From Bryum argenteum (lineage: Eukaryota; Streptophyta; Bryopsida; Bryales; Bryaceae): a stretch of DNA of 64,000 bases. Under the pieces are notes generated by a model. That model worked only from the letters and a program-made list of their open reading frames with translations, was not told the origin of the DNA and ran no database searches. Location of the stretch: contig CM073326.1 in the NCBI GenBank assembly GCA_037043015.1, forward strand, positions 5,553,845 to 5,617,844. The letters are read 5' to 3'. The translations under genes were made by a program, and so were the position numbers. This document shows, piece by piece, positions 3,425 through 51,236 of the stretch (within the stretch, counting starts at the first letter, position 1; each line of letters starts with the position of its first letter).

Positions 3425-5571
3425 CTAGGCCCGCCTTCTTCTTTTGTGTTGATCAGAGTAATCTCTCCATCTCCGATGATCAAGCTCGCCCAAATCATCC
3501 AAATCAGATATAGCAACCAGGTAGTCAGCCAGTCCTAGAAGCTCCTGATCTGTACTACGGTTGATGTGTGCCTTCTTGAAAGGTTTGATTACCAGCCCGT
3601 TTTGAGGATTCATCACAAAGTTCCGCCGCAAATCATCGAACATAATTGTGTTCTTTGCGTTGTAAAACTGCAAAATATCATGTGCAGCTTCATCAGCAAC
3701 TGTGATCAGAAGAGTCAGCAATTAAGGGAGTGCACACTGGTAGAGACTTTGTTTACCTCTGGACACTTTCCCCAAATGACACCAAGCGGTTTGCAATCGA
3801 AAACCCCGTGAGACTCTGATTGCACTGTTATCATGGCCAGATGGTCAACCATAGCCGTCACTTTGTAGTCGGGGTGAGAAAGTACACCAAGCTCCTTCAT
3901 CTTCACCTCCACCCACTTCATGCTGATACCCCCACATCAAGTCAGGAACATCAAATGAATCTCTAAATATAAACTGAGGAGGTCAAGCATCCTGAGTAAA
4001 CGTTTCAAGTCCATACTACAACGAGAGTTTCAAAGCTAGCACTCTCTAGGTGCCCCCTTTCTAAATTTACATAAACAATACTGCTGACCATCGGCTCACC
4101 TGGTTGCTGACCAGATTATAATGTCATAAAACTGGTACGCGGTCGTCAAAAACTCGTGGAGATCTGTCATGAGGTAGCCAAACAACACTTAATTACAAGA
4201 GTTGAGCACGAAGCCTATTCCAAACAAAAGCTCCCCGCATAAGTATCAGGACAATGTTCTGCTACATTACTTACAAGGGCGCATCAATTCACGTGGATTC
4301 TCAGCAATCGAGCGGTGGTCGAATAAAGTGTAGTCGATGTCCAGCACCAAACACTTCTTGCCTGGTCGAGGAGGATTGATCAATGTCAGCTGCCACCAAG
4401 AATTAACAAAAATCCCCATACGTAAGACTCAGGTACTTCCAATTTCTTTGACCGAGACCATCATGACTGAATGAAAAGAGTCTCTCAACGTCAACTAAAG
4501 TCAAGCCTTGCCATAGAGATACAGCACTCTAATGAACAGTCTCTCATGTCAACTAGAGCCAAGCAGTGCCAAAGAAATACAGCACACTCCATCATTTATT
4601 ACGTAAAAACGCAAATTACCTTGAATTGCTCAATTCGACGCTTCAGTTTTTGCTTGTTGACATCCCGATCCATGATATCAACGGTATCTTCTTGACCAAG
4701 CTCAAAATCATCCAAAATCTCAGGCGCATCTACTGGCTCGACCAGAATCTCATCTTCCACAGTCCTGTAAAACTTTGCTATCAGAGACCTGAACGAATAC
4801 TGCAAAATCGAGAGTCCTGTAAAACTTTGCTATCAGAGACCTGAATGAATACTGCAAAATCGAGAGTCCTGTAAAACTTTGCTATCAGAGACCTGAACGA
4901 ATACTGCAAAATCGAATAGGACAACCTGAACGTTCGACGGGGTTAGCCAGTTCTGAACACAATTCATTCAAAATCAGCTGCATGATACAGAGAAGTTGGT
5001 CTTAGAAATTGACATGAGCTATTCTCTTAGCACCGATTGAATACTCAATCCGCACATGAATGCGACATTATACAAAAACTTTGATCCTGATCTCTTTAAT
5101 GATCATCTCATTGGCTGAGGCTTCTTTTAGGGTTATGTGATTCGGCTGGATGAAGATACAACTCATAGACCTGTTCTGAACTATGATGTGGAACAAACAA
5201 GCACTACCAACTGACAGCCTTCAGTTTAGTGCAAAATCGTTAAATAATTCGTGATTCGAAACCCTAATTCACAGCAAATATTTGAAAGAGTGAGCCACGA
5301 ACCCCATCATCATGATCTTGATGGTAGGCTTGAGGTTCAACTGCGAGAGGAGCATGGAATCGTCGGCGGGTTTGACGCCGGCCTTGACATTGAGCAATTT
5401 CTGCCGCTTCGGCAACACATTTGTGACTTCGCAGATCCGGCGTTTCAACTCGCCGACAGTGTCGTCGGCGCACACGCGCACCGTGTACTCCTTCCCGGCC
5501 CACTTGATCGCCATCGTCAACTCCTCCACGCCCGGCAAAGTGCTCGTCGTCGCCCCTTCCGCCGACGCCAT
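3425..5571 (-). CDS. UBLCP1: Ubiquitin-like domain-containing CTD phosphatase 1, complete, six exons
   Basis: Exons (minus): 5571-5303, 4764-4620, 4389-4275, 4163-4100, 3922-3757, 3667-3425, giving 333 residues, close to the plant family length. All junctions are GT-AG and frames join exactly. Residues about 17-90 are a ubiquitin-like domain ([11 protein letters not shown]...ELKRRI...LPKRQKLL). From about 139 follows the HAD/FCP1-type phosphatase domain with catalytic DxDxT as DIDYTLFD (Asp155 nucleophile, Asp157 acid/base), then [17 protein letters not shown] and [17 protein letters not shown]. Known role of the family: nuclear phosphatase that acts on the 26S proteasome and RNA polymerase II CTD Ser5. 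A basic tail (KRRRRA) could aid nuclear import. The start is the first in-frame ATG (5571) at MASAEG; upstream frame begins at a non-ATG codon. Intron 1 ends inside a tandem triplication. Confidence 0.95.
4480..4597 (-). repeat. 59-bp tandem duplication in UBLCP1 intron 2
   Basis: Two diverged copies (4480-4538, 4539-4597), each beginning GTCTCTCA and holding GTCAACTA and ATACAGCAC. They lie within the intron between exons 2 and 3 and end about 20 bp before the exon 2 donor. Confidence 0.7.
4761..4915 (-). repeat. 52-bp tandem triplication carrying the UBLCP1 intron 1 acceptor
   Basis: Three nearly identical copies start at 4761, 4813 and 4865 (plus-strand phrase AGTCCTGTAAAACTTTGCTA). Read on the minus strand, each copy ends GTTTTACAG followed by GACT, so the intron 1 acceptor exists in triplicate. 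Only the copy ending at 4765 keeps the reading frame. Use of either upstream copy adds 52 or 104 nt and shifts the frame. Confidence 0.9.
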
Positions 5572-5787
5572 GGATCCTGACCAATTGTTGGACACACAAA
5601 AATTTCTGTCAATGCAAGGATTTTGAAACGGGAAAATTTTGCGCTCAAGAATGGAGAACACAGCTTTGTCGTCGTCCCTCTGACCTATTTATTGCCTGAG
5701 CCGACGTTTGGTGCCGGTACCATTATGACGGGTATCAATGCGGGTATCAATGCGAGTATAGATACGGGTATCAGTACGGGTATTGTT
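5572..5787 (-). promoter_or_regulatory. UBLCP1 5' leader/promoter region with 12-bp tandem repeats
   Basis: Upstream of the UBLCP1 ATG. From 5728 to 5787 there are five degenerate copies of a 12-bp unit (ACGGGTATCAAT-like). No certain TATA box is seen. Assignment as promoter rests on position only. Confidence 0.4.
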
Positions 5788-9800: not shown

Positions 9801-10830
9801 GAACCATTAGAACTTACTATGACACGTCTACGATGTAGCCAGTACCGCAATTTGGGTTTAATTCTGACGATCGTTGCTTCACACAATTTCCAGCATTTGT
9901 AGAAGGAAGAGGATCACGAGAAGCAGGGAAGCTATCACACCGCCGGCCATCACGCATCAGATACCCCAATTCTCATATGTGCTTTCAACGTAAGACAATA
10001 CGGTTTGCCTTAATTGCTGTCACAGAATGGTCTGATAGGTGGGCTGATTGCTGCACCTCCTTGCAAGTCTGACACATGTCGAAATCAGCACATGCGTTGT
10101 TATGGTAACCACGTTCAGAAATGACATCGCTGCAGATGCCACAACTTTTGGAGGACATTGTAGGCACCGTGACTGCAAAACAGTGAATCGTTAGAAAGCT
10201 CCGAGAAAAGAGAACGATGGTAAGCTGTTGAATGATTCTGGCAGTGGAACTTACAGCATCAGAGCGAGGGGATCGGCCATCGACTTACGTTAGGACAAAC
10301 CGCTAGAACAAAAACTGTGACACCCTAATCACCATCACTATTTTTGATAGTGAAGACGTGACGTTTGTCGGTGAATGCTTGGCAGACTCTTAGAAAAGGT
10401 TGTGCTTGGAAACTGTTCCTCATATTATCTCTGAGCAGCAAATTTTGAAATGGGTCTTCCGTTGTATCCTAGTTGTAAGCAAGATGAATTTGTCCTAGCA
10501 TAACTCTTATGCTACACACAAAGCTTCTCGCCCTGCTTCAACCTTTGAATTTGAATGAACCGGTGCAATCTGCGAAATGTGCTCATGTACACTTGATCCT
10601 TATGCGTAATGTGCACATGTACACTTGATCATTATGGGTCTGCGTGGCGTAAGCGTAAAGGCGGCTCGCGAACACCTCCGCATCCAATCCATCCTTCCTC
10701 TGATCGTACATGTCTTGCTTCGAGATCGCAACCAGCATGATATCATGTGCCGCCCATGTGAGGGAGTGAAGTCTGACCTACCTCGAACGTGTGCCACCAC
10801 AATTTGTGCGTTCCTATCCCATCGAATCTA
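9800..10830 (-). pseudogene. Decayed C-terminal fragment of a TIR-NB-ARC-LRR-ZZ receptor
   Basis: Minus-strand sequence matches exons 5 and 6 of the receptor locus at 11.4-17.9 kb. About 10,830-10,250 aligns with exon 5 (VVAHVRGRSDF... against VVARDSGWSDL...; later PFHNLVLRDN- and KVCQAFTENR-like stretches). 10,167-9,985 holds a ZZ-like exon reading SCGICSDVISERGYHN then ACADFDMCQTCKEVQQ. The second zinc-ligand pair is incomplete: the Cys expected in GYYC is Asn here. Further down, 9,970-9,800 is a degraded copy of the C-terminal Trp-rich exon. The TIR, NB-ARC and LRR exons are absent. Exon 5 has stops and indels in every frame. A tandem 30-bp duplication (CATGTACACTTGATC, near 10,583 and 10,615) lies in it. 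Confidence 0.75.
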
Positions 10831-11426: not shown

Positions 11427-11509
11427 TCAGCTCCTTAGCGCCATTGTTTTCCTGTAGAAACAACACAGTGCAAGTTCCGATGCTCCGGCAGTGATTCGTT
11501 GAAACTTAC

Positions 11510-11865
11510 TCTCGCACGTAGCCGATCTTGTAATTTGGGTTTGATTCGAATGATTGATCAGCAGCATAAATTCTCCTCATACTAGCACAAGGAGGATCAC
11601 TAGAAGCAGGCAAGTTCTCACTCCACCACAAATCATCCACCACATACCCCCAATTCTTGATTGTGCTTTCATGAGGCCAAATACCAATATAGCCATTTGC
11701 CTCAGATTCGATTAAGAGATGAGCTGACGGATGGACTGCTTACTGCACCTCCTTGCAACTCTCACACATGTCAAAATCAACACATGTATTGCAATAGTAA
11801 CCGCGTTCAGATATGACTTTGTTGCAGATATCACAGGTTCTCCTGCGCGTACCAAAGCCGTTGAC
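11510..11865 (-). other. Exon 6 of the receptor locus: ZZ-type zinc finger plus Trp-rich C-terminal segment
   Basis: After the splice the frame reads TCDICNKVISERGYYCNTC then VDFDMCESCKEVQ. The CxxC-x10-CxxC-x5-CxxC spacing and the D(F/Y)DxC core match the ZZ zinc finger. The final zinc-binding HxxxH is present as AVHPSAH, but a TAA codon (11,742-11,740) separates it from the rest; the 38.7-kb copy has CAA at that place. The frame then continues ESTIKNWGYVVDDLWWSEN, RRIYAADQSFESNPNYKIGY and joins a 25-nt last exon ending at TGA 11,429-11,427. Four copies of this exon exist in the window. ZZ fingers elsewhere bind peptides or modified histone tails; the role here is unknown. Confidence 0.75.
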
Positions 11866-11946
11866 CTGCAACACCCACAATCGTTAGGAAGCTCGAGGAA
11901 AAGGAATGATAGTAAGCTCTTCAATAATTGAAAAAGTGGAACTTAC

Positions 11947-12636
11947 AGTAGAGAAAAGGGCTCTGCCATTGACTTCAACAGGAATAGGTTGATACACAGT
12001 TTGTCCAAAAACTTCAACAGGCATATCACCATCATTATTTTCAATGGTGAATCTGATGTGACGATTTTCAGTGAATGCTTGACAAACTTTTGGAAAAGGT
12101 TGTGCTCCGAAACTGCTGCTTAAATTATCTCTCAAGACTAGATTGTGAAATGGATCTTCCGATGTATTGTTGTCGTAAGCTACATGAATGTGTCCTTGCA
12201 TGACTATGATTTCAAATGTACCATAAATGGAGAGTGTGTCAACACAAAGCTTGTCACCCGAATTCAGACTTTGAATGAGCCGGTGTGATCTGCGTAATGT
12301 ACACAAGTACACCTCATCCCTATGGTCTGCCTTGCGCATTGGGAAAAGCTCACTTCTGAACACTTCTACATCTGATCCTTCTTCAGATCGTACAATTCGC
12401 GCTTTGAAGTTACACTTGTAAAAGCAACGCCCATGATAATCGGTTAAGTCAGACCAACCTGAGTCACGTGCCACCACCGTAATGACAATGGCTGCAATAC
12501 CGCTCCCTATGATTACAGTTTCCATGCACAACTCAGTTCTGTCTGGTGATGAAGATATCTTTTTGGTCATCAAATTCTTAACAAACCCCATGGCATGGTC
12601 ATAGTAGCTGACCACTTGTGGAAATGAAGCTCCAAC
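11947..12636 (-). other. Exon 5 of the receptor locus: conserved post-LRR region
   Basis: 230 codons from acceptor 12637 to donor GTAAGT at 11946, open throughout. It reads VGASFPQVVSYYDHAMG, then VITVVARDSGWSDLTDYHG, VYLCTLRRSHRLIQSL, NSGDKLCVDTLSIYG and VMQGHIHVAYD, ending NGRALFST. The SGWSD...HG segment with a later SLNSGDKL and mainly alternating hydrophobic residues suggests a beta-sandwich; it recalls the DQGWSD-type segments of some plant and fungal proteins. That resemblance is from memory and tentative. The exon is also present, decayed, at 9.8-10.8 kb and 49.3-50.0 kb, so it is part of the family architecture. Confidence 0.6.
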
Positions 12637-12781: not shown

Positions 12782-14471
12782 CTGGTTCCAATCGCTGTTA
12801 TACTTTACGCACACTCCACTCCCACTTACATAGCACTGTGTCATTGTTGATTCGAAAAGATCAATTTGCAGTTCCGACAGACTACAGCACCCACTCACGT
12901 TCAATATCTCAAGGAACTTTGCATGTTCCACCCCTTCCAACTTAGTCAAGCTTGTGCAGTTGCACAAGGTGAGTTCTCTCAGCTCCGATAGGTCTTTGAC
13001 GGAAATTCTCACCACCTTGGGGCAATCCCCAAGGTCCAGCCATTCAAGGGACACGGGCAGAGATTCAACATTGACAAGATTCGGGCATCCTTGAATATCG
13101 AGGAACTGCAAGCTTGTCAAATCCTTGAGGCTACAAGGCAGCTTTGATAACTTATTCCTCTGCATGCCAAGGTACCATGATAAATTCTGCAAGCCTCCAA
13201 AGCTGCATGGTATATCTCCGTCTTCAATGGGACACCCATCTAGGTCTAGCTAGGAAAGATTCTGCAACTGTCCAAAGTTGTTTGGTAGCTTTCTAATCAT
13301 AAGGCTCTTGTTTAGGCTGAGATGATTGAGTCTTTGTAGGTCTCCAAAACTGTCCAAAAGGCTCTCTAATTGGTTGCAGTCCGATAGAATGAGGCTAGAT
13401 AGATTCTTAAGATACCCAATGTCACTAGACAACTCTCGGATAGCTGTGTGTTGTGCATAAAAGTTTTGCAACTGCGTTAGTTCCTTCACAGACCTCGGCA
13501 ACTGGGATAAAGATTTGCATTCACGCACGTCCAGCCAATTCAAACGAGTTAACATGGAGAAAGAATCAGGTAAGGCAGTTAAACTCGAAACTCCCCTAGC
13601 AGAGAATCTAACCAATGCCCTAAGATTCCCAAAATTTGCTGGCAGATTTTGTATCTTGACGCATCCGTTTATGGAGAATGTCTCGAGAACTGGCAGCTTC
13701 ACCACACCATCAGGCAAGGCCTTCAAGCACTTGCAGTTACTCAAGTTCAAACTTTTGAGTCCCTTCAGTTCGCAAAGAGAACTTGGTAGAGATATTAGCT
13801 TCTTGCAGTTCTCCAAATCGAGTCTCCTTAACCTCGTCAGTAACTTGATATTTTCTGGAATCTTTTGTAGTGAAGTGCAGTTCTTAAGGATCAGAGTCTT
13901 CAGTATCCTCGGAACCTGCATTTAGGTATAGTCAAACACAATCAAAACCACCTTAATAGTGCGAACTGTACGATGAAATAAACACCAATTATGGCAAAGT
14001 GACTCCGCAACAACAATGAAGTGTACAGAAGAAAACTCAATTAATCTGCAACCACCTTACTAACCATGCAGACTCACTCTAATTTTGTTTTTCAAAATTA
14101 TAAATTTTGTACTCAATCGCCAATTTACTAACTATTCTACGTGCATGTCTCTAAAGGTTTTAAGTGGGAATTGGACTCAAATTGTATACCTGAAATGCAT
14201 CATGTTCTGCCCATAACTGAGTGAGACTCTTACTCTCTGAAAGATCCAAAACTACCATGTTTGAGCAATACAGCTCCAAAGGTAGGCTCCAAAGAAATAA
14301 ATTCTTCCACTGCATCCAACGGATCTTTTTGGGCATTTGAGAAAAGTCTCCCTCTATACGAACTCCATCTAATAGCAGAAAGTGAATCTCGGTCATGTTC
14401 CGAAATGCTGAAGTCGTGAATGTCTTCCCATTCAACCCAACCAACGATAGGCCTCGAACTTCCTTTGCCCC
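12782..14471 (-). other. LRR exons 3 and 4 of the receptor locus
   Basis: Exon 3 (14471-14190, 94 codons) begins GAKEVRGLSL, followed by FSQMPKKIRWMQWKN and VVLDLSESKSL, the usual junction between NB-ARC and LRR. Exon 4 (13915-12782, 378 codons) carries about 14 leucine-rich repeats of the plant type (LxxLxxLxLxxCxxLxxLP), for example LRRLDLENCKKLISLP. One repeat contains the TAG at 13,252-13,250. The matching position in the 50.6-kb copy is a Ser codon in LCSLDL, so the stop looks like a single TCG-to-TAG change. Repeats resume in frame directly after it. Confidence 0.85.
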
Positions 14472-16046: not shown

Positions 16047-17889
16047 TCACTCATCTTCAACCATCTTTCTACCCATCTCTTGGATGAGGCCATGCATGGT
16101 CAATCTTCCGCCATCGTTCACTTTGACAAGAGACTTATTTATTAAAGTTTGCAAGGAGCCCTTCACCTTTCTAGATGTCAAACAACGGTTAGGCCTGCAC
16201 AGAGGATTCGAGTCACGTGACGCACAAGACTCCCAAATGTCTAGAGCATCTTCCTTGAGAAGTCCAACCATGAGACATGCGATATCTAAGAACATCATCT
16301 TGTCCGACTTTGAACGAAGTCCCTTGTAGCTTATACTCAATGTGTTGAGGACGTCAAGATTGGGGCTCATTTCTCTAGCTTCCTCTTCCCACTCTGCTTC
16401 CGACCTATTACATAAGTGCTTTCCAATGATTTCCAACGCCAATGGTAATCCCTTACACACATCTACTACTTTTTTTGCGAGAGGGTACAATGGGTGCTCA
16501 TAGTTTGGAATTGATTTGTTTAGGAATGCGTGAACACAAAACAACTCCAATGACTCCTCAACGTTTAGCACCTGCATCTCCAATAAATAGTCGGCTTGAG
16601 GTGCTTCCTTGAAGACCAGATCCAAGACATCCTTGTCACGTGATGTTAAAATGATACGACTTCCACCTCCTAGTTTCTTTAAGTCTGGTACCAGCTCCAT
16701 GAAATGTTCCACATAGGAGATGTCATCTGTTACAACTAGCGCCCGCACACAGACTAGTTTTTTGAAATAACCACGGTACTTTTCAGCCACATTTTTCTCC
16801 TTCTTGCCAAGGAGCTCAAGTATTTGATTTTGCAACTGCGCCACATCTTTACCTTTGCCAAGCTCCAGGAAAGCTTGGTACCCAAATGATCGTTGCATTG
16901 AGAAATGATTGTATAATTCCTTGGCAAGAGTTGTTTTGCCAATGCCACCGGCACCCCAGATACCCAGTATGGCGACATTATCTCCCATCAATTCAAGGTT
17001 ACTCAAAGTAGATTCAAGTAGCTGCTGACGACCAACAATATATGTTGGAACGCATTGTGTCCTATCCACTCGCGTTGAATCAATTATCTCTTCAACTCGA
17101 TCAATAATAGCATTCTTGAGCTCACTTTCATTCCTGCACGCAATCAAGATCCATACAAAATCAACTCATACTTTAGCACTAAGAAAACAACATCTACAAA
17201 GAGATCATACTACTAGCCTCTGTATGTCAATATAGCATGCCCTCGTTCTACTATTAATTGACAACCCAGTATTTCCAAAAAAATATCATTCATGTATGAT
17301 GCTTCAGGACTTACTTGAATTTATCATCTTCAAAGCCCATTATGTCGGCAGCCTCATGAAGAGCTTCCTTCCAAACAGGAATGCACGAGCCTCGACCCCT
17401 CTGCTTGTGGTGCTCGAATGCTTCCTGAAAAGGCCCTCTCTCTACACACCGAATATGTGAAGGAGTCACATTCAAGAAGATAGGTATCAACTTCACGATG
17501 CTACAAGAATCCTTCTTTAAGCACTCCACCATGTCAACTAGCTCGTCCAAGGAATACTTGGACTCTGCGTATCGAGGGGTGAATATTGCCAAGTGAACGC
17601 ACGCATCTTGAATTGCAGCTTTGATCGCCTCGGGGACACACTCCCCCCGCACCAGTCCAGTCTGATCAAAGAAAGGAACGTATTCTCTTAATGTAAGCGC
17701 TTCCGCAAGATGAGAGGCGAAGGCTTTACCATCCGGACCTCGGTGGTTTATGAATATATCAAATTTAGTCCGACGACGTTTGTAACTCTCAGCAATTCCT
17801 AGCAGCCGATGTTCATCAGCACTGGCCTCTTCTGGGACATTTCCGGCTGTGCGTTTCCTCCCTCGACATGAGATCATGAATTTTTCCAT
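16047..17889 (-). CDS. TIR-NB-ARC coding part of the receptor (exons 1-2, to the first stop)
   Basis: This open part would give a 553-residue TIR-NB-ARC protein. Start at ATG 17889 (MEKFMISCRGRKR). Exon 1 encodes the TIR: FDIFINHRGPDGKAFASHL, then LAIFTPRYAESKYSLDEL with the usual conserved Ser-Leu-Asp-Glu-Leu helix that bears the catalytic Glu in TIR NADases. Exon 2 has the P-loop GAGGIGKTT (252-260, Lys258), kinase-2 LVVTDD, RNBS-B GSRIILTSRD, GLPLA in GLPLALEIIGKHL and the TNL-type RNBS-D MFLDIACL. The MHD motif reads MHG, a change at a position that often affects autoactivity in other NLRs. After the stop the frame still reads a typical HLWDPTDVEDVL linker to the LRR. Donor 17314 (GTAAGT) and acceptor 17134 join in phase 2. 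Confidence 0.85.
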
Positions 17890-18168
17890 CTTGATGACGC
17901 TTTACGATACCCTCAAGCGGGCTCAAAAACTGGCTTCTAAATCTCTTTGCTCTGCACCTATTTGAGGATTCAGCGAAAATTTCAAAAATCATTAGCTCCA
18001 AGCTAGGTTAACAGTCTCCTCCACTTGATGCAGACGTCAAGAACATATACCCCCTTTTGAAACAGTACGTTCATCGTCAGGCATCGATATCCTGCTGCCA
18101 GGCCATGCTATTTTCATGTTAGCACCTTTCTTATATAACACTATCAAGACTGCACCATGAATTATCAT

Positions 18169-18233
18169 CACTACTAGAAAAGAGGGGGTAAGCAATGTTT
18201 ATCACATTGATTACCCCCTGTTTTCTAGTAGTG
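18169..18233. mobile_element. 65-bp miniature CACTA element
   Basis: Ends CACTACTAGAAAA and TTTTCTAGTAGTG are perfect inverted repeats of the CACTA (En/Spm) type. The inner arms (GGGGGTAA.CAATG / CATTGATTACCCCC) extend the hairpin almost to the centre. The 3-bp flank CAT is duplicated on both sides, the expected CACTA target duplication. The homologous site in unit 5 (about 51,675) lacks the element. Confidence 0.92.
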
Positions 18234-20846
18234 CATAACTATGCAACCTGTTTGTACCAAATATGGAGGTTGTAAAGCAGATGTGGTAATCTTGACAAAT
18301 TCAATAGAAATTCCACACCGACTACATGAATATTGACTTCAGAGCAACATTTTCAGCTTATCTACTTCAGAATCAGCAAGTTGCAGCTTCAAATTAATAT
18401 CTTCAGCTTCAGTATCACCAAGCCTTGGTGGGCAATGCAAAAGAAGAATGCGATAATCTGTTGACTTCACCTACACAGTTAGGTAGAGGCCGCAGGTTGT
18501 TACAGCTGAAAACACACGCAAAGTGCATCTGGTTCAAGGCCATGATTGTTGCTTGTTGCAACCCCAAGTGAGCAGCTCCGGTACAAATTTGATACAATCA
18601 AAGAAAAAACCTGCACAAACGTGCAAGCTGTCCGTTACTCAGAAGAACTTCAGCCAACAGGGAAGCACTTGTGGCTAAATTTTCCTTGCTTCCGTTAACA
18701 TTTTCTGCTCAAAACCATGCATTCCATGTCTCGAGCCTCGCACACTCAGCAGGTGCTGATGGCTCAAGTGTTTGGGGACATTCTTAACATGTCAAGATTC
18801 GGCATTGAGATCAAATTCTAATCTCTCGATTTCAACTTTGTGGTGGATGAAGAGAAATCAAAGAGCTTGATTGAAACGATATTCTACAGAAATTAAGAGG
18901 ATTTGGGAACTACGTACAAACATATCGCCAAAGATCACTACCGAAGGTTCACTTTGACAGCTAAAGAGACGTACAAACACAGTGGTCATCATGCATCTCG
19001 CACAACCACAAGTGGTAAATCTACCGTCCATGGTTACATGTTGCCAGTAAATCTATCCACAGCGAATTCATCCTTGTATAACCGCAATAATCATATATCT
19101 AGAAGAATCTGAAAGTTTTGTGCCCTTGTTCTTGCCTGACCCTAAGAGAGAAGTTGCGGCTTCATAAGCTTAATCAGAATCGCAACGTAGAAAACAAGCG
19201 TGATCAGGAAGTCACTCACCTTGAGCACATCTCTCCCAGGAAAAATTTCTCTTCGTCTCTCTCGCCATCTCACCTGCTTAAACACGAGAGAAAATCTTGA
19301 ATTGCACAGACTCTTACCCCTTAGCTTCAGTTCTGCAATGGCAATGGTACGTTCCTCAAAAACAACAACCATGTAGCCACTATAACCTACCTCAAATCTG
19401 ATCTTCTGAACTGTCGGTACTGGGAGCTATCGTGCAGAATAACGTTACTTACAGTTGAAATGGCGCAAATCTCCGACTGTGAGTTGGAGCTCTTTTCTTC
19501 TATGAACATGGCGTGTCTTCCTACACACGGAGAAGCAGTCGGGTGGTGGGAAATATCTAACTCCGAACTACTTAGCCAAACTCCGCTCCACGTTGACGAA
19601 TTCTACACTTTCAGCGACCAATTCTTCATTATGAATAACCTGAGCGACTAACGGGCACCTGTCTCATGTGGACGAGTCAAACAAGGTGCTTCTCTAGCAT
19701 CCTCAAATGAAAGCTTCACAGACAAAGTATTTACAATTAGATGAAGACTGTTTATTCAGTAGCTGTACTGTTTCTGTGACGAAAGCCACACTAAAATCAA
19801 TGACTCTGTAGTCCATACTTGTTTACTCCTAGAAAAACTTTACCTCTTTGACTAATTCCAACCGTTGATGATTTGTGAAAAATGCCTAGTTATATTTGAA
19901 AGAAAGAGGACCAGTTCTCGAAGTACTCAATCTGAACATTGCACAAATACTTAATACCTTATACAATCATCAGTTTTAGTTTCGATTTTAACTACAGACC
20001 ACAAGAATTCTGAATTGATATGTCAAAAAATTGCATCACAAATCCTAAAAAGTATCAATCAGTATATAAGAAATCGTTCACGACTGTTACTTGAGACAAA
20101 TTGCCACAAGAGTAATTAGGAATCAAACTCTAGATATTCATCAATTCATGATATTTATTTTGCATGTATAATTCAAGTTGTTGCCTAGATAGATAGAAAC
20201 TCCGGTCCTTTCTAAGGGGCCCGCGTGAATGAAGTGTCCGTTCGTGATGCTAATATCCCGATGGCCACCGGACAAGGGGAAATTAGAACAATACTACTAT
20301 TTGTTGCCTAACTCTACATATGCAAGAGAATAAGTGACATATCTTGAATCTCATAATAACAATATTTGTGTACTACTGGTTCCTAGATTTTGCCTCCTAT
20401 TTGTTTGAATCATATTCCAAACTGTAAGGAGCAACAAGAACAACAATTAATGAAGTAAAATCATGTCTCTTATCCATGTAACTTTTCCAACATTGACTTT
20501 TGAGCTTGTCATGGGATGAAATTCTTCTCTAAGTGACTTTTACTCGTGGATATGTGTACTATAAAATGCCAATAAAAGCATCCTTGCATCTGATGTAACA
20601 ACAATGTGATACTTGATACAATCTGAAGAATTCTGCATACCATTTTATAGTATTTCATGACTCTGTTGTTGATAGTAGCATTATACCTTATTAGTCTTCT
20701 CCTCATTCTCTTCTCCTCATTCGTGAAGCTTACATGAGGTGTAGCAACGTTGAGGTTTTGTTTCTATCGTTACTGTGGCCATAATGGAAGACAAATTGTG
20801 CTTCGAACATCCATTGCACACCATAGCCAAACCCTGACCAGAAAAA
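18234..20846. other. Unit 1 spacer between receptor and metallothionein, no confirmed gene
   Basis: The sequence is shared with unit 5 (51.6-54.3 kb) and partly with units 2, 3 and 4. On the minus strand several splice-donor-like sites are conserved between units, for example CAAG|GTGAGT at 19,220 and TTCAACT|GTAAGT near 19,455. These could be untranslated leader exons of the receptor gene. A short ATG-led frame at 19,268-19,220 (MARETKRNF...) is also kept in units 2 and 5 but differs by 2 nt in unit 1, so coding is doubtful. Confidence 0.4.
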
Positions 20847-20849
20847 TTA

Positions 20850-21392
20850 AGGTACAGACACCCATACCAGTTAGCACCCCCATGACCGGTAAGTAGGTAT
20901 TCTCACTGCCGCGCATGGCTGAACCAAAAAGAGATAATTTTATCCGTCAAGAGTGCGGTGCATGATCTCATAGTGGAGGGGAGGTAGCCGAAACTGGTGC
21001 ACTCAAATACGGAAATTGCTAATTACCAAATACGGAAATATGGCTATGGCTAGAATTGGGGGCTTCTAAGTTAGCTTTGTGGTCCAGACTTGTCCGTTTA
21101 AGGTTTCTCCATGCTCCATTTGCATGATGTCTGTTATGGTTTCTCAGCAATGGATTTTCCTTCACTGCTTTTATTCCTATCCAAAATGGGTGAAGCTATA
21201 TGGCGGTTGTGTGTCTGGGCTACTTTTTGACTCAAAAATTTGTAGTAATTTCAGATTTCCTTGAAAAAAAAATTAAAAATTTCCATTCTTCATGAACCTT
21301 ATTTCCCTACAAAGGAAAAATAACTGCTCCTTCATAATCACAGCCACTCCATGCTCAAATGCTTAAGTTCTCCGTTATAGGTGCCTGTACCT
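20850..21392. mobile_element. About 543-bp DNA transposon insertion with TA/TTA target duplication
   Basis: The left end AGGTACAGACACCCATA mirrors the right end (TATAGGTGCCTGTACCT). The flanks are ATTA and TTACGTCG. Units 3, 4 and 5 have an uninterrupted AATTACGTC at this place, so the borders are well fixed. The duplication reads TA (Tc1/mariner) or TTA (PIF/Harbinger) depending on how one base is assigned. No transposase is encoded. The element arrived after the units separated. Confidence 0.75.
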
Positions 21393-21530
21393 TACGTCGC
21401 ATCCAGACAGTTGAGTGATACCAATGCCACTCGAGGATTATCTTTCTAATCAGCGCTTTCGTGATCGTCACTCAGTTTACGAATCTTTACGGTGTGGGCA
21501 CTTCGGCGATATTCGCGCATTTGCAGATTT

Positions 21531-21770
21531 TACGTAATTGACGATCGTGCTTAACAGTTGTAAGCCAAATTTAGAGAAAGAACCGAATCAGGTGATTCCC
21601 GCCATTAATGAGCTTGTGTCTGAGAGCTGACATCCAGATCCGCCCTTGAACAAGCAACACCAGCAATTGACGAGCAATCGAACAAAGCAACGCCAGCAAT
21701 CGAACAAGCGACATCAGCAATTTCTGGAGGTCAAAGTGCAATTCGTTGTGTGTAGCTAGCCATGATCTGT
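21531..21770 (+). repeat. Conserved block 3' of every metallothionein gene
   Basis: This block recurs at 34,840-35,060, 39,815-40,045, 45,100-45,300 and 54,475-54,680, always about 300 bp beyond the metallothionein stop codon. It starts near TTGACGATCGTGCTTAACAG and contains short repeats of the AACAAGCAACACCAGCAA type, whose number differs between units. A plus-strand frame is open in units 3 and 5 (Gln/Asn-rich, QQSNKRHQQFLE) but has a TGA in units 1, 2 and 4 and no ATG start. Coding is therefore unlikely; a 3'-flanking or transcribed non-coding role is possible. Confidence 0.6.
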
Positions 21771-22052
21771 TTGATAGTTGAGGAGATTAAGTAGAGTAGA
21801 AGGTGCAGTACAGAGCAATCTTTCAGAAAATAGTGACGGATAACAAAGGTGATGCGGTCACGATTTATTTATGAGAACAGCGTCCGATTGTTCTGTGATT
21901 GAAAGATATCACATTATGACAGACATCATCACAGCACATGTTGTAAGCTACAACGGCGATAACGTCGTTATATAGTAAACTGAAGATCCGCACAACGATG
22001 TAGAGCTGCAATTTTCTTCAGGGGAGCCGCCATGGCGATCGGCTGCCTGAAT

Positions 22053-22564
22053 CTACTTGTGGCAATCGCAGTCCCCGCAGCTGCAGTTAGGGCCGCAGTC
22101 GCACTCCTCGTTGTAGCTGTTCACCACAATTACATCCGATCAGCAAATTGAAGATCGCTTCCAACAAAGGGATGTTGTAACAAGAAACCAAATCAAGAAA
22201 GTGAAACTTACTTGCGGAGTCCGCCCAGGGACCTGCAGCATCTGGAACACCAGACAACGAAGATAAGGTGAGTGAAATCGCACTTGAATAATTCTTTGTA
22301 GCTTTCTCTAAGATTAATTGTAAAAGACTCAATGAAGTTGATCAATATTCGTGAACAAACAATTGTTTCCGATCACTTTAGAATCAAGAACTGGTATATT
22401 AGCAACGGTGCAAGTATAAGGACTGACGCAACGGCATGTATGTAATCGTACTGATTCGTTTCAAACCAAGAACAAGGAGATACTGATACTCACCCGCATC
22501 CGTCACCGCATTGGCAGTCAGCACCGCAGCCGCAGTTGGGCTTGCCGCATCCTGTCTTGGCCAT
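22053..22564 (-). CDS. Metallothionein MT1, three exons
   Basis: Exons 22564-22494, 22241-22212 (30-nt microexon) and 22116-22053 give 54 residues. The N-terminal cluster is MAKTGCGKPNCGCGADCQC then GDGCGCC, and the C-terminal cluster is ECDCGPNCSCGDCDCHK, separated by a short RSLGGLRNYNE linker. Fourteen Cys in two clusters with CxC and CxxxC spacing, plus a terminal His, are typical of plant metallothioneins that bind Zn(II), Cu(I) or Cd(II) in the cytosol. It does not fit angiosperm types 1-4 exactly. The start ATG sits in GCCATGGTG context on the complementary strand, 71 nt before the first donor. An alternative acceptor 9 nt into exon 2 (GCTGCAG) would drop Cys-Cys-Arg and give 51 residues with 12 Cys. 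Residues 37-38 are Glu-Glu, as in MT5. Confidence 0.92.
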
Positions 22565-22675
22565 GGTGATGAGCCTCGAAGAAAAGAGATCAAGAACGAT
22601 GGAGCGAAAAGAGAGCTGAAGTAGGAGAGCAAACAACAATGAGGAAGCACGAAATGCTCTTGCCCGTGGCTGGAG

Positions 22676-22682
22676 CTTTATA
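22676..22682 (-). promoter_or_regulatory. TATA box of MT1
   Basis: TATAAAG, 112-118 nt upstream of the MT1 ATG. It is conserved with flanking GCTCCAGCCACGG in the other four units. Expected transcription start is near 22,650. Confidence 0.75.
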
Positions 22683-22739
22683 TTACTACTTGCGTCTCCC
22701 CTCTCCACGCAATGGCTCTATCGGCTACTGAGTAGCCAG

Positions 22740-23452
22740 TCCGTGCAGGTCGCATCTTCTCTATTTTAAGGGATGGAGCTTCTCCCTTTTACTACCTACC
22801 GTCTACAGTATTGCGCTGTTACCGCGATGGCAAAATTCGAGGAGAGACGTCGACATGTTGCTGCTGCATGATCTGGATTGGAACAGAAATCTTTGAAGCT
22901 TGTGTTAAGATTCAATTAGAGTAGCGGCTACTGACATTATTCGGTTATGCTTGTGGATAAATGATATTCAGGGGAACATGCCAAAGGGTAGCAGGTGGTG
23001 GGACGACGTAGCTGGATAAAGAGGAATTCATTGCATTCAGGAATCTCAGCAATATTACACCAATTATAAACATGAAGGTATGAAGTACGGTACTATAGTT
23101 GATTTTGGTACCGATATTCAGCTTGGAACATTGGGGGAGTTAATTCAGGTCTTTCAGACCCAATTATCACGGCTAGTTCAAAACAAAGTATGTTGTCGTA
23201 CTATCAGTGAATTTTCCTACTTCGAGAACTTCGTCAAACTGGGATGCCGCTCACAAGTTTGAAGTGACTTGAAGTGGACAACTTGTTTGCTTACTCGGCT
23301 TTCTCAAACTCAAGGCAATCATTTCTCTACCCTTCCCTTCTGACTGATATTTTCTTGTGTATATTTAAGAAATTTGATTGGATAGATTTCAAGACTCTAA
23401 ACCAACAAATCTAATAGAATCTGGTATAAAGACTAATTTGTTAATCTTAAAC
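22740..23452. other. Upstream region of MT1, conserved between units, no gene seen
   Basis: Recurs upstream of MT3, MT4 and MT5 (for example CGAGGAGAGACGTCGACATG near 22,838). It contains TGACGTC-like and GACGTCGAC motifs that could bind bZIP factors; this is only a sequence resemblance. Confidence 0.45.
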
Positions 23453-24670
23453 CTTAACCCCTAAAATCTAAAGCCCCGGCCCACAAGTTCCAAAATTCCT
23501 CAAAACGACCCTTTTTCAATTCAAGATGTAAATTTTTAACTTCTAACGTTATCTCAAGTATGTAATTGTAGGATCTTATACTTAACTTGGCAATGTATGT
23601 GTGTACCAAAACGTCGTTTCAAATTACTTACAAATCGTGAGATTGTAACATTCAAATATAAGGAATTTTTAAGCATGAAATGACTTTTCGGAAAGGTATG
23701 GAAATATTCTACATCAAGAGGTTTTAATTTCACGAGCTAAATATAGAAATACGAGGCCAACAAGACTCCAAACGTCTCATTTGGGGCTCTTTTCAACATT
23801 TGGGGTTAGTGTCTTGAAGATCCCAAAATGAGATGTTTGGAGTCTCGTTGGCATCGTATTTACTATATTTAGCTCGTATGAAATTGAAACCTCTTGCATG
23901 TTGTAGATGTTTTTGATACCTTTCCGGAAAGTCATTTCATACTTCAAAATCTCCATACTTTAGGAGATATCTATGGTCAAAATTTGAAAACACTATTTCA
24001 AGTCTGCCCAAAAACTGCCCAAACTGTTGTATATGCTCATGTTCTTGAAAAACTGCCTAAAATCAATCAAATGGCAAGAATTACAAAAATTCACTAGAAA
24101 TTGAGTTTTTATTCTAATTTTTTCTAATTTATTCTTTTTTTCTTTTTTTCTTTTTTTTCTTTCCCGGTACATGTGCACAAGGTTTTAAGACATGATCTCA
24201 TCGTTTTGATCTTCAATTCAATTATTCTTTACATGCCATTTTTATTTTCAAATACTAGCCTTTGCATTTGAATTTTAACCCACCTCTATGTGAGAATTCA
24301 AGCATTTCTTTGAGTTTTATAGGTCACTTGAGGGTAAAAAATGCATACACATGTTACTAACTCACTTAGGAAAAAGAATGTGAAGAGCCTCTAATCAAAT
24401 TACTCTTAAAATTAGTTTTTGGGGTCACGAAAACTTCGAATCCATTTTGTAACAAGTGAAAAAAACTTACTCTTCAACTTGGAAATCAATGTTACCATCT
24501 CACAATTGGTGAGGAAATTGAAGCTAAATTTGATACGCACGTACATGGACAAGTTTGGTACAAGATCTTACTGTTACATACTTAAGATTACGTCAAAAGT
24601 TGAAAATTTTCATCTTGAGAGTAGTTTTGAAACTTTTTGACAGCTGTGAAGCCTTTCAACTTTAGGGGTT
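23453..24670. mobile_element. Large foldback element in the unit 1 tail
   Basis: The left end CTTAACCCCTAAAATC-like and right end CTTTAGGGGTT form an inverted pair. Inner arms (23,670-23,800 and 23,830-23,960) pair closely, and the motifs ATCTCAAGTATGTAA and CATACTTAAGATTACGT mark matching outer arms. Compared with the copy in unit 3, the left arm has lost about 430 bp. Flanks with CAACAA(G/T) suggest a 9-10-bp duplication and hence a Mutator-like origin (tentative). No transposase. Confidence 0.65.
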
Positions 24671-24779
24671 CAACAAGATCCTGCAGTTGAAATTCTCAAT
24701 CACGTCCTGCACATCGATTTGAGAAAAAAGGTCGATTTGGACCATTCAACTATAACTTAAGAGTTGAAGTTTTCACCGT

Positions 24780-25080
24780 TTGCATTAACATGTTACTATT
24801 GATGTACTATTTAGAAATATTCGTATAGACCTGAATATCCTTATATTAGATATTCAGTACTGAGGATATTCCAACGTAGCTGAATATCCTAACCTCTTTT
24901 GCATGAGAGGATCCTGTGAGAACAACTTGAGAATGGCACCCTACTCTGAATAGGAACTGGATGGGTAATAAGATACCAATAATTCAGGATGTTGTTGCTA
25001 CTCAAATGCTCATGATTTTTGGGGTGATTGCCACGGCCCAGCAGAAAGTTGCACGGAGGTCTGGTTGAGCTGAATAGAAG
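24780..25080 (+). repeat. Conserved tail block ending unit 1
   Basis: Nearly identical sequence (TGCATGAGAGGATCCTGTGA ... GCTGAATAGAAGTAAAT) closes units 1, 2 (about 37,260-37,577), 4 (47,790-48,100) and 5 (57,150-57,470). It is the most uniform non-genic part of the unit. Short minus-strand frames in it are not consistently open. Confidence 0.85.
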
Positions 25081-25196
25081 TAAATAACCACATATTCGTT
25101 TAATTGGGACTATTCCACATATTTGGGACTATTCTGGTTGCATGTAATTGAAGGTTTTTAGGTTTCCACAAGTAGAAATTCTTGGGTCTAAGGTCC

Positions 25197-33960: not shown

Positions 33961-35355
33961 TAGAATTCGTCCTTGTACAACAGCAAGAATCAAATATCTA
34001 CAGGAATCTGCAAAATTTGTGCCCTTGTTCTTGCCTAACCCTAAGAGAAAAGTTGCGGCTTCATAAGCTTAATCAGAAACGCAACGTAGAAAACAAGCGT
34101 GATTAAGAGGTGACACACCTTGAGCACATCTCTCCCCGGAAATTTCTCTTCGTCTCTCTCGCCATCTCTGACCTGCTTAAACACCAGAGAAAATCTTGAA
34201 TGACAGAGACTCCTAACCCTTAGCAACACATGTAGCCACTATAATCTACCTCAAATCTGATCTTCTGAACTGTCGGTACTGGGAGCTATGATGCAGAGCA
34301 ACGTTACTTACAGTTGAAAAGGCTCAAATCTCCGACCGTGAGTCGGAGCTGTTTTCTTCTATGAAAATGGAGTGTATCTTCCTACACACCGAGAAGCTGT
34401 CGGGTTGTGGGAAATATCTAACTCCGAACTAGCCAAACTCGGCTCCACGTTGACGTATTCTACACTTTCAGCGACCAATTCTTCATTACGAATAACTTGA
34501 GCGATTATCTGGATCCTGTCTCATGTGGAAGAGTCAGACAAGGTGCTTCCCTGGCATCCTAAAATGAGAGCTTCACAGACAAAGTATTGACAATTAGATG
34601 AGGACTGTTTATTCAGTAGCTGCCTAAGCTGCACTGTTTCAATGACGAAAGCCACACAAAAATCAACAACTCCATAGTCCACACTTGTTTACTCTTCGAA
34701 AAGCTTTACCTCTTTAGCTATTTTGAACCACTGATGATTTGTGAAAAATGCCTTGTTATTTCTGGAAAGAAAGAGGACCAGTTCTTGAAGTACTCCATTT
34801 GAACGTTGCACAGATACCTTATACAATTATTTCACATTTAGTTGACAATCGTGCTTAACAGTTGTAAGCCAAATTTAGAGAAAGAACCGAATCAGGTGAT
34901 TCCCGCCATTAATTAAATTGTGTCTGAGAGCTGACATCCAGATCCGCCCTTGAACAAGCAACACCAGCAATTGACGAGCAACCGAACAAGCAACGCCAGC
35001 AATCGAACAAGCTACACCAGCAATTTCTGGAGGTCAATGTGCAATTTGTAATGTGTAGCTAGCCATGATCTGTTTGATAGCTAAGGAGATTACGAAGAGG
35101 AGAAGGTGCAGTACAGAGCAATCTTAAAGAAAATAGTGACGGATAACAAAGGCGATGAGGTCTTAATTTATTTATGAGAACAGCGTCCAATTGTTCTGTG
35201 ATTGAAAGATATCACATGATGACAGACATCATCACAGCACATGTTGTAAGCTACGACGGCGCTAACGTCGGTATACAGTAAACTGAAGATCCGCACAACG
35301 ATGTAGAGTTGCTATCTTCTTCAGGGGAGCCGCCATGGCGATCGGCTGCCTGAAT

Positions 35356-35853: not shown

Positions 35854-35964
35854 GGTGATGAGCCTCGAAGAAAAGAGATCAAGAACGATGGATCGAAGAG
35901 AGAGCTGAAGTAGGAGAGCAAACAACAATGAGGAAGCACGAAATGCTACTTCCCGTGGCTGGAG

Positions 35965-35971: not shown

Positions 35972-36084
35972 TTACTACTTGCGTCTCCCCTCTCCACGCA
36001 ATGGCTCTATTGGCTTGAAGTGAACAACTTGTTGCTTACTCGGCTTTCTCAAGGCAATTATTTCTCTGCCCTTCCCTTCTGATA

Positions 36085-38720: not shown

Positions 38721-39050
38721 CTAGCTCCTCATTGATCTCCTGCGGAAACAACACAGTGCAAGTTCCGATGCTCCAGCATTGAATCGTTGAAACTTACTCT
38801 CGCACGTCCACGATATAGCCGATCTTAAATTTGGGTTTGATTCGGATGATTGATCCGCAACATAAATTCTCCTCGTACTAAGTGTAGCACAAGAAGGATC
38901 ACCGGAAGGAGGAAAGTTCTCACTCCACCACAAATCATCCACCGCATACCCCCAATTTTTAATTGTGCTTTCATAAGGCAACATGCCATTATGGCCATTC
39001 GCCTCAAGTGCGGTTAAGAGATGGGTTGACAGATGGACTGTTTGCTGCAC
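38721..39050 (-). pseudogene. Receptor remnant in unit 3: last two exons only
   Basis: Exon 6 (about 39,050-38,798) reads EVQQTVHLSTHLLTALEANG, then ESTIKNWGYAVDDLWWSEN and RRIYVADQSSESNPN. A GTAAGT donor and the short last exon 38,739-38,721 (ERSMRS, stop) follow. The ZZ cysteines and all upstream exons are missing. At about 39,050 the receptor sequence breaks off, and by about 39,100 the sequence matches the spacer near 20,310 of unit 1, a deletion of about 8.5 kb. The C-terminal exon shows no early stop before about codon 70. Confidence 0.8.
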
Positions 39051-40317
39051 CTCCAAACTCGAGTTTTCATTTTCAAACACTAATATTTTGCATCTAAAAC
39101 TAAAGTTGTTGCCTACCTCTACATGTGGAAGAGAATAAGTGACTTATCTTGGTTATCTTAAAAACAATAATAGTGTACTATTGGTCCTGGACAAGATTTA
39201 GCCTCTTTGTCATTCAAATCATATTCCAAACTCTAAGGAGCAACAAAGCACAAGAATCAATGAAGTAACGTGTCTCTTATCCATGTAATTTTTTCCGACT
39301 TTGAGTTTTTAAACTTGTCATGGGATGAAATTCGTCTCTAAAGACTTTTACTCGTGGCTATGTGTACTATAAAATGCCAAAAAAAGCATGCTTGCATCAG
39401 ATGTAACAACATTGTGATTTTTCCTACAATTCTGCATTGTATAGTATTATAGTATGTCAAGACTCTCTTGTTGATAGTAGCATTGTACCTTATTAGTCTT
39501 CTCCTTCAATGTTCAGTTTCTGTTTCTTAGTTTCTTCTTCATTTGCATGCGTGAAGCTTACATGAGGTGGTGCGGCAATGTTGATGCTTTCTTTCTATCA
39601 TAAGTATAAGTGTGGCTGTAATGGAAGAAAAATTGTGCTTTTAACATGCATTGAACACCATTGCCACACCCTGACCAGAAAAAATTACGTCACACCGAGA
39701 TAGTTGAGTGATACCAATGCCACTCGAGAACTATCTTCCTAATCAGCGGTTTCGTGATTGTCACTCTTTACGGTGTGCGCACCTCGTCGATATTCGTGCT
39801 TATGTAAATTTTACGTAATTGACGATCGTGCTTAACAGTTGTAAGCCAAATTTAGAGAAAGAAACGAATCAGGTGATTCCCGCCATTAATGAGCTTGTGT
39901 CTGAGAGCAGACATCTACATCCGCCCTTGAACAAGCAACACCAGCAAATTGACGAGCAATCGAACAAGCAACGCCAGCAATCGAACAAGCGACACCAGCA
40001 ATTTCTGGAGGTCAATGTGCAATTTGTGATGTGTAGCTAGCCATGATCTGTTTGATAGCTAAGGAGATTACGTGGAGTAGACAGTGCAGTACAGAGCAAT
40101 CTTAAAAGAAAGGTGATGCGGTCACGATTTATTCATGCGAACAGCGTCCAATTGTTCTGTGATTAGAAAGATATCACACCATGACAGACATCATCACAGA
40201 ACATGTTGTAAGCTACAACGGCGCTAGCGTCGGTATGTAGTAAACTGAAGATCCGCACAACAATGTAGAGCTGCTATTTTCATCAGGGGAGCCGTCATGG
40301 CGATCGGCTGCCTGAAT

Positions 40318-48882: not shown

Positions 48883-51236
48883 TATCGCACGTCCACGATG
48901 TAGCCGATCTTGTAATTTGGGTTTGATTCAGAAAATCGATCCGCAACATAAAGTATCCTAATAAGAGCACAAGGAGGATCACCAGAAGCAGGGAAGTTCT
49001 CACTCCACACCATTATATCATTCACGACATACCCCCAATTCTTGATTTTGCTTTCATAAGCCAACAAGCGATTATTGCCATTCGCCTCAAATACAGTTAA
49101 GAGATGGGCCGACAGTTGGTCACTTTGCTTCACCTCCTTGCAACTCTAACACATGTTGAATTTAGCACATGTGTTGCGGTGATAACCACGTTCAGAATTG
49201 ATATCGTTGCAGATATCACAGAATCTCAAGAGCGTGCTAGGGTCCATAACCTGCAAAACCGAGAATTGTTAGCAAGCTTGAGGGAAATGTAACAATCATA
49301 AGCTCTTTAATAATTGAAGAAGTGGAACTTACAACTATTGAGAAGAGGGGTCGGCCATTAACTTGGCCAGGGAGAGGTTGATACACAATTCGTCCAAAAA
49401 CTTCGAAAGGCAAATCACCATCATTATTTTCAATAGTGAATGTGATCCGACGGTTTTCCTGAGCAAACTTTTTGTAAGGTTGTGCTCGGAAACTGATGAA
49501 TGTGTCTTTGCATGACTATCGTTTAGCTCTGTGGGTACATTTAGCTCGACTCGAGCTAAACGCCCATTTCTCAAAATCAGTGAATGTTACCATTATAACA
49601 AATTACGTATTCAAGCTTGTCACCCTACTTCACGCTTTGAATGAGCGGGTGTGATTTGCGTAATGTGCACAAGTACACCTGATCCCTATGATCTGCCTCA
49701 CGGAAGTTCAAAACCTCCATAACATCCGATCCTTCTTCTGATCGTAGAATTCGCGCTTTGAAGATACATGTATAAATGTATCGCCCATATATATTGGCAC
49801 AGTGAGACCAACCTTTGTCGTGTGCCACCATCGTAATGACAACGGCTGCAACACATCTCCCTATGATTCTTGTTTCCATGCACAACTTATGTGCGCAATG
49901 TAACATAGATATCTTTATGGTCATCAAGTTTTAACAAACCCCATGGCATGGTTTTTTGTAGAAATGGAGCTCTGGCCAGAAAAAGTCCTCATAGACATTC
50001 AACTTAGAAATGTTAGAATTTGGAATGTCAATTCAGCATTCAATATTGTAAACAATGTTTTCTGTGAGAGCTCTAGTGGATATGGCAAGAATCTCAAGGA
50101 CTTTGATTCATACCTCGTTCCAATCGTTGTTATACTTCATGCACACCCCACTCCCACTTCCATAGCAGTATGTGATTGTTGATTTGAAGAGGTCAATTTC
50201 TAATTCCGACAGGCTACAACATCCACTTACATTCAATTCTAGAAGGGACTCCGCATTCTCCACCCCTTCCAACTTAGTCAAGTTTGTGCAGTTGCACAAG
50301 GTGAGTTCTTTCAGCTTTCATAGCTCCTTCATAGAAACTCTCACCACCATGGAACAATCTCCCAGTTCCAGCATCACAAATGAGAGTAGCACGGATTCAA
50401 CAATGACAAGATTTGGGCTTCCTTCCATAATCAGGTTCTTAAGCGTGTCAAATCCTTGAAGCTACAAGGCAACTTTGTTAACCTATTCATCTCCATACGA
50501 AGGCGAGATAAATTTTGCATGGTATATCTCCGTCTTCAATAGGAAACTCCTCAAGGTCTAGCGAGCAAAGAGCATGCAATTGTCCAAAGTTGTTTAATAG
50601 CTTTCTCAACATAAGGCTCCGACTCAGGAAGGCATACGGGAGTCTTAGTAGGTCTCCGAAACTCTCCGGAAGGCTCTTTAATTGGTTGCAATATGTGAGC
50701 TTGAGATAATCCAGGCTTTTGAGATCCCATAGGTCACTAGGCAACTCTCAGATAGTTGTGTCACTTGCATCCAAATCACTTAAGTGCAGTAGTTCTTTCA
50801 CAGACCTCGGCAACAGGGATAAAGATTTGCAAGTAGACATGTCGACGCTCTCCAAACGAATTAACTTGGAGAAAGAATCATATAAGGCAGTTAGACTCGA
50901 AGCTCCCCTAGTAGAGAATGTAACCAATGCCCAAAATTTTCCAAAATTTGCTGGCAGATTTCGTATCTTGAGTTCTTGACGCATTCGTCCATGCAGAATG
51001 TTTAGAGAACTCGCAGCTTCACCACACCATCAAGGCAAGGCTTCCAAGCGCTTGCACCCTCTCAAGTTTAAACTCATGAGTACTTCGAGTTCGCCAATAG
51101 AACTTGGTAGAGATGTCAACTTCTTGCAACACCAAAGATTGGGTATCCCTAACCTCGTCAAAGAGTTGATATTTTTAGGAATCTTCTCTAGTGAAGTGCG
51201 CTTCTCAAGGATCAGAGTCTCCAGTAACCTCGGAAC
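48883..51236 (-). pseudogene. Receptor remnant in unit 5: LRR and C-terminal exons without TIR/NB-ARC
   Basis: Counterparts of exon 4 (about 51,236-50,114), exon 5 (about 49,978-49,333) and exon 6 (49,250-48,883) are recognisable. The LRR exon starts VPRLLETLILEKRTSLEKIP but is broken by several frameshifts (for example after LRGCKRLEALP). The exon 5 acceptor region is rearranged and there is an internal deletion. In the ZZ exon the sixth-Cys region reads NMC-stop-SC and the Cys of GYYC is Arg. The C-terminal segment (ESKIKNWGYVVNDIMVWSEN ... NPNYKIGYIVDVR) is well kept. A stub of exon 3 lies at about 51,515-51,537, fused to upstream spacer. Confidence 0.85.

Follow-up and report, generated by a model that had tools for sequence, protein, structure and literature searches.

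A decayed TNL receptor gene of Bryum argenteum from a small clade with a ZZ finger as probable integrated domain

A decayed gene from a small clade of TNL receptors, in which a ZZ finger probably acts as a sensing integrated domain (NLR-ID), lies in the 64-kb stretch of Bryum argenteum DNA analysed here (the window). The underlying architecture is well supported: TIR and NB-ARC exons, a post-LRR exon (Ex5) and a ZZ exon (Ex6) were found in this order at 11/11 loci of the clade, one of them open throughout. A preliminary description of the window had proposed such a TIR-NB-ARC-LRR-ZZ family; its architecture was borne out, but the decay of the window copies had been overlooked.

The most complete window copy, c1, is a six-exon TNL-type locus on the minus strand (Table 1). 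Its TIR, NB-ARC and LRR domains were all detected above the Pfam cut-off, in that order, whereas Pfam searches with exon 3 and with Ex5 returned nothing above cut-off. The join between the TIR and NB-ARC exons is in phase 2 and the remaining joins are in phase 0. The path from LRR through a 230-residue region to a ZZ finger and tail, as originally described, was recovered: Ex5 and Ex6 lie 3′ of the LRR exon, and the introns LRR2/Ex5 and Ex5/Ex6 are in phase 0 with GT..AG borders. The Ex5-Ex6 intron, recognised as GT plus GCAG, was detected in c1, in two further window copies (c2 and c4) and in three copies elsewhere in the genome (A, C and D); copy B was not reported by this pattern. Read on into the intron, c1 Ex5 ends after 20 residues, so that a form lacking the ZZ may also exist. 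The sequences GAGGIGKTT and GLPLAL, which we take to be the P-loop and GLPLAL motifs, were found in c1, A and B. The position presumed to be that of the MHD motif reads MHG in 3/3 NB-ARC copies examined (c1, A and B).

Table 1. Coordinates of the receptor copies in the window and of two related loci elsewhere in the genome.
Feature	Coordinates	Strand	Remarks
c1 exon 1, TIR	17315..17889	-	Pfam TIR E 9.7e-24; open from ATG to donor
c1 exon 2, NB-ARC and winged helix	15963..17133	-	Pfam NB-ARC E 3.8e-32, WHD_ROQ1 E 3.8e-10; in-frame TGA 16047-16049
c1 exon 3, first (short) LRR exon	14190..14471	-	85% identity to counterpart in copy B
c1 exon 4, long LRR exon (LRR2)	12782..13915	-	Pfam LRR families; in-frame TAG 13250-13252
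c1 exon 5 (Ex5), post-LRR region	11947..12636	-	230 codons, open; homologues at 11/11 loci
c1 exon 6 (Ex6)	11506..11865	-	ZZ finger ~11841-11710, Trp-rich tail ~11709-11509; in-frame TAA 11740-11742
c2, LRR2-Ex5-Ex6 remnant	48897..51236	-	stops and frameshifts; no TIR or NB-ARC match
c3, tail-only remnant	38823..39098	-	sequence match within window
c4, degenerate second Ex5-Ex6 cassette	9832..10800	-	~1 kb downstream of c1; no LRR exons
TNL locus, Ex5 then two consecutive Methyltransf_FA domains	C6:7529662-7532036
TNL locus, Ex5 then two consecutive Methyltransf_FA domains	C7:4432058-4434043

The HMM search of the exon 6 peptide, put forward in the preliminary description as a check, yielded a ZZ match above cut-off with the 41 residues of c1 located 5′ of the stop in that exon (E 8.3e-5, 22.8 bits; cut-off 21.4). 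The same pre-stop part also passed for Pfam C1_2 (E 6.7e-6, 26.8 bits; cut-off 26). With stops read as residues, C1_2 dropped off the list for c1, and 3/4 window copies matched ZZ (best E 9.1e-6). Outside the window, Pfam ZZ (PF00569, cut-off 21.4 bits) matched Ex6 of A (30.0 bits, E 4.5e-7), B (28.3 bits, E 1.5e-6) and D (31.7 bits, E 1.4e-7), with C1_2 unlisted at E up to 0.5 in all three. Since Ex6 of A, B and D matched ZZ alone, C1_2 was ruled out as the identity of the domain. A genome-wide search with the ZZ profile placed 4/4 copies on contig C4 (A, B, C and D) above cut-off. The pattern CxxC..CxxC..CxxC..HxxxH retained 8/8 zinc ligands in A, B, C, D and c1, the c1 stop preceding the His pair. 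Among these five copies, 0/8 ligand positions were variable versus 21/35 of the other ZZ positions (Fisher p 0.0036).

c1 is a pseudogene with three in-frame stops. The first, a TGA, lies at the end of its NB-ARC exon; the second, a TAG, interrupts the long LRR exon; and the third, a TAA, separates the sixth Cys of Ex6 from the HxxxH pair. No stop occupies the codon of this TAA in the aligned copies c2, c3 and c4, so that it is probably recent in c1. No intact family member was found within the 64-kb window, only elsewhere in the genome. An equal exon order had been claimed for copies at 10 kb and 49 kb; the order Ex5-Ex6 was found in both, but both are fragments, the 10-kb copy (c4) consisting of Ex5-Ex6 only and the 49-kb copy (c2) of a broken LRR2-Ex5-Ex6. 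The lone tail placed at 38.7 kb was indeed found as a tail-only copy (c3) at 38.8-39.1 kb. A zinc Cys was lost in c2 and in c4. Among the window copies, dN/dS was 0.64 (0.46-0.90) for LRR2 of c1/c2, and for Ex5 0.82 (0.56-1.22) with c1/c2 and 0.44 (0.27-0.70) with c1/c4. Ex6 was indistinguishable from neutral within the window (0.86 for c1/c2, 1.21 for c1/c4), and the tail of c1/c3 was not separable from neutral (0.53, interval up to 1.18).

A second, degenerate Ex5-Ex6 cassette with wording of its own, e.g. CGICSDVISEPGYNNNACADFRMCKS, lies downstream of c1 and of several copies on C4 and C6, and looked decayed in the copies read. c4 is an instance of this trailing cassette, and the ancestor may have had two Ex5-Ex6 cassettes in a row. 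The stretch upstream of c1 recurs in the window (18016-25086, 33963-37590, 39084-43447, 44216-48097 and 51532-57479), with long matches of ~80-94% identity, and two of the recurrences directly adjoin remnants c2 and c3. This recurrence could stem from a mobile element, or from segmental duplications in tandem during which the receptor body was lost. Elsewhere in the window, a minus-strand ORF at 5269-5688 contains a ubiquitin-like stretch and presumably resembles an exon of the UBLCP1 phosphatase; a long low-complexity GAAA/TTTC tract at 41488-41921 translates in several frames into runs of Lys/Glu/Arg or of Phe/Leu/Ser.

The extent of the clade was determined in the same genome (258.8 Mb), in which the window lies on contig C6. 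With the best copy's NB-ARC as query, 11 loci of 76-100% identity were identified (one split in two pieces), the next nearest match being at 39%. All 11 possess a TIR exon, one of them in two pieces. On the same strand at every one of these loci, an Ex5 match and a ZZ-type exon match followed downstream at distances of 2.4-3.6 kb and 3.3-4.3 kb, respectively; this distance test took as input 13/30 Ex5 matches, 20/25 Ex6 matches and, for the split locus, a single NB-ARC piece. Genome matches numbered at least 25 for the c1 Ex6 query, two being host ZZ genes (on C3 and C1), and at least 30 for Ex5, both counts being lower bounds because only the best candidates get scored. Apart from c2, c3 and the two host ZZ genes, the 25 Ex6 matches lay at the 11 loci or in adjoining cassettes. 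The locus at C6:5973243, which belongs to the 11, yielded a ZZ exon of the degenerate second-cassette type.

One member of the clade, gene A (C4:14667902-14673932), has all six exons open, separated by five GT..AG introns with the same phases as c1, and contains TIR, NB-ARC and LRR in order within open exons. The extra domain thus lies in the same open gene as the receptor in this predicted model, which has phase-compatible introns and encodes 1,344 residues (sum of modelled exons). Each of the other 10 loci, c1 of the window included, had one or more exons disrupted by a frameshift or a stop, as judged from six-frame matches. Breaks were located in TIR for B and in TIR and Ex5 for C, and D carries a frameshift in Ex5; besides c1 with its three stops, the remaining six loci had lesions in TIR, NB-ARC, Ex5 or Ex6, LRR exons being left out of the comparison for those six. 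With 10/11 loci broken, the family may be nearly dead. Comparison of gene A with c1 gave dN/dS of 0.40 for TIR and 0.31 for NB-ARC, and pairwise values for these two exons were 0.25-0.40 among the copies compared. Codon models on five copies, in which a grid of omega values was compared with omega 1, gave (p values uncorrected) omega 0.6 for Ex6 (p 0.04), 0.8 for Ex5 (p 0.04) and 0.8 for LRR2 (p 0.007), estimates pulled towards 1 because 4/5 copies are broken. In the same five copies, neither the ZZ alone (0.6, p 0.07) nor the tail (0.7, p 0.19) reached significance.

Ex5 provided a link to other receptors. Homologues of 34-37% identity were found at C7:4433480-4434043 and C6:7529662-7530231, with TIR and NB-ARC upstream (the C6 NB-ARC match being partial). 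The ZZ pattern was absent 3′ of Ex5 in the stretches read at both loci, and Methyltransf_FA (PF12248) occupied this place (E 2.2e-16 on C7 and 8.8e-13 on C6). Ex5 looks like a post-LRR domain common to a TNL lineage, behind which the downstream domain would have been exchanged. Since two related TNLs have Methyltransf_FA there, the position after Ex5 accepts different domains, and such exchange resembles a variable sensor slot. No TNL with Methyltransf_FA or farnesoic acid terms appeared among the literature matches listed. On contig C6, a TIR match precedes four Methyltransf_FA matches, of which one lies on the opposite strand (C6:15831009-15835061), with no intervening NB-ARC among the 106 NB-ARC matches listed; this is possibly a TIR-Methyltransf_FA gene. 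C-JID (PF20160) is a post-LRR domain common in TNLs though not universal; neither c1 nor A matched it in Ex5, and a genome-wide search with its profile, blank on control loci also, was uninformative. A PDB sequence search with Ex5 (7-row profile) was unconvincing, the best match being a potassium channel (E 0.0031, 58 columns). Close-relative scans detected no relatives of Ex5 in prokaryote contigs and none of Ex6 in viral contigs. AlphaFold2 models from four-row alignments had a mean pLDDT of 34.8 (Ex5) and 35.5 (Ex6), too low for use.

In order to place the ZZ among known ZZ proteins, the copies were aligned with five ZZs of the host genome, a sixth, on C5, lying outside the alignment. The nearest of the five was that of BIG (15-16/27 core residues), followed by a HAC-like ZZ (12-14/27). 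The host BIG gene was confirmed against BIG structure 9qt9 (E 4e-197), while the labels HAC, ADA2 and PRT1 are our assumption from familiar motifs. The best PDB sequence matches of the ZZ were fission-yeast ZZ protein P35G2.11c, which we take to be Nbr1, BIG and p62. This resemblance is one of class kinship and does not identify a donor.

The ZZ of p62 holds N-termini by Asp129, Asn132, Asp147 and Asp149, single changes of which lower binding nearly 30-fold, and the zebrafish protein has Asp at 132 (PMC6098011). The equivalent positions, assigned by eye on the alignment of ZZ copies and five host ZZs, read D,N,D,D in c1, D,D,D,D in A and B, N,D,D,D in C and D,K,D,N in D. By the same assignment, the host ZZs read D,S,D,D (BIG), N,H,D,D (HAC-like), N,N,D,D (ADA2-like) and D,G,E,D (PRT1-like). 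Both amine-holding residues (p62 Asp129 and Asp149) are kept in A, B and c1; the broken copies C and D each lack one. A shares both with the BIG and PRT1-like ZZs, and neither the HAC-like nor the ADA2-like ZZ has the pair. Their retention in intact A is suggestive of N-terminus binding but no proof of it.

We favour the following scheme. Behind the post-LRR Ex5, fusion added a separate exon in phase 0 that encodes a ZZ finger and a Trp-rich tail; this exon, Ex6, would be spliced in and translated, and the ZZ-tail would act as an effector-sensing integrated domain, either as a bait that looks like one of the host's ZZ proteins, for which BIG and PRT1 are candidates, or as a direct ligand binder. 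Binding, or its loss, would then release the NB-ARC, and TIR domains would assemble and signal as in other TNLs. An integrated decoy would fit the known integrated domains of NLRs.

Four other explanations were weighed against this integrated-sensor scheme. That nothing but pseudogene debris exists, an architecture with no working member and no present function, is somewhat unlikely: c1, c2, c3 and c4 are all broken or partial, as are most loci of the clade, but gene A is open throughout and its dN/dS against c1 is 0.40 in TIR and 0.31 in NB-ARC. Still less probable, and in our view very unlikely, is that Ex5-Ex6 belongs to a separate, unrelated gene or is a passenger copied along with the TNL. 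The degenerate second cassette does occur without LRR exons, yet Ex5 is homologous to the post-LRR part of two other TNLs, the joins are in phase 0 with splice sites kept, and the order is preserved at 11/11 loci. ZZ domains elsewhere contribute to protein stability, dimerisation, and E3 or autophagy contact, and the ZZ-tail could have a structural or regulatory role of this kind rather than that of a sensor; we consider this unlikely, the exchange of ZZ for Methyltransf_FA after Ex5 looking instead like a variable sensor slot.

The ZZ could, finally, be a sensor of neo-N-termini, binding free N-termini (N-degrons) as that of p62 does and either reporting protease fragments or guarding the N-degron pathway. 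The residues of c1, A and B at the four p62 positions, the presence of Asp129 in the BIG and PRT1-like but not the HAC- and ADA2-like ZZs of the genome, and the kinship with P35G2.11c, p62 and above all BIG, nearest of the five host ZZs, are in favour of it. Against it stand Asn at 129 in C, and Lys at 132 and Asn at 149 in D, and no pocket could be seen at the pLDDT obtained for Ex6. Furthermore, the four p62 residues are not conserved in other ZZ proteins and the NBR1 ZZ may not be an N-recognin, according to PMC6098011, and N-degron binding by the ZZ of BIG was still an open question in 2024 (PMC11668491). On balance this explanation appears improbable. Its strongest form, in which the receptor would carry an N-recognin whose ZZ reads free N-termini, would detect ends cut by effector or host proteases and would couple the N-degron code directly to TIR signalling, seems rather improbable.

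Several known systems resemble the sensor architecture in part. RRS1-R has the layout TIR-NB-LRR-WRKY, and is alike in having TIR, NB-ARC and LRR followed by an extra domain towards the C-terminus; that domain is a WRKY in RRS1-R, and a ZZ finger plus Trp-rich tail in the present clade. The ZZs of p62/SQSTM1, PRT1 and BIG, proteins of the N-degron pathway, are alike in ZZ sequence, zinc ligands and the equivalents of Asp129 and, mostly, of Asp147 and Asp149. p62/SQSTM1 is an autophagy adapter and PRT1 and BIG are ubiquitin-pathway proteins, whereas here the ZZ is predicted on an immune receptor. C1_2, likewise a small Cys/His zinc domain, is recorded as an NLR integrated domain in B. rapa, O. 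sativa and T. cacao in PMC4759884. The fragment of c1 passes the C1_2 cut-off, but these NLRs differ from the present clade in that Ex6 of A, B and D matches ZZ.

It had been stated initially that a ZZ finger was not known from any standard TNL class, and no such TNL was present among the literature matches listed; a precedent nevertheless exists, since a passage of PMC7145615 lists ZZ (PF00569) as one of the domains that occur in NLR-like genes of the moss Physcomitrella patens. That passage, a single phrase, gives neither the architecture nor the position of the ZZ, whereas the ZZ is C-terminal on a TNL here. Among the NLR integrated-domain survey passages found by the terms zinc finger or PF00569, all in main texts, none had a ZZ on a TNL; a survey printing a bare "ZZ" could be missed, because the two-letter term is unsearchable. 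From the predicted domains, we take the c1/A family to be NLR-IDs with a domain type that we did not find reported for TNLs.

Integrated domains hint at the host processes attacked by pathogens, and the closeness of this ZZ to its counterparts in BIG, PRT1 and p62 directs attention to the N-degron pathway. Links between this pathway and plant immunity have been described: pathogen resistance is altered in prt1 plants (PMC11668491), and the RIN4 fragments made by AvrRpt2 start with Asn and Asp, their N-degron turnover being described as weak or unresolved (PMC8777003). With one intact gene and a compact domain, the idea lends itself to direct testing. The interchange of ZZ and Methyltransf_FA behind Ex5 marks a site of domain exchange in this TNL lineage.
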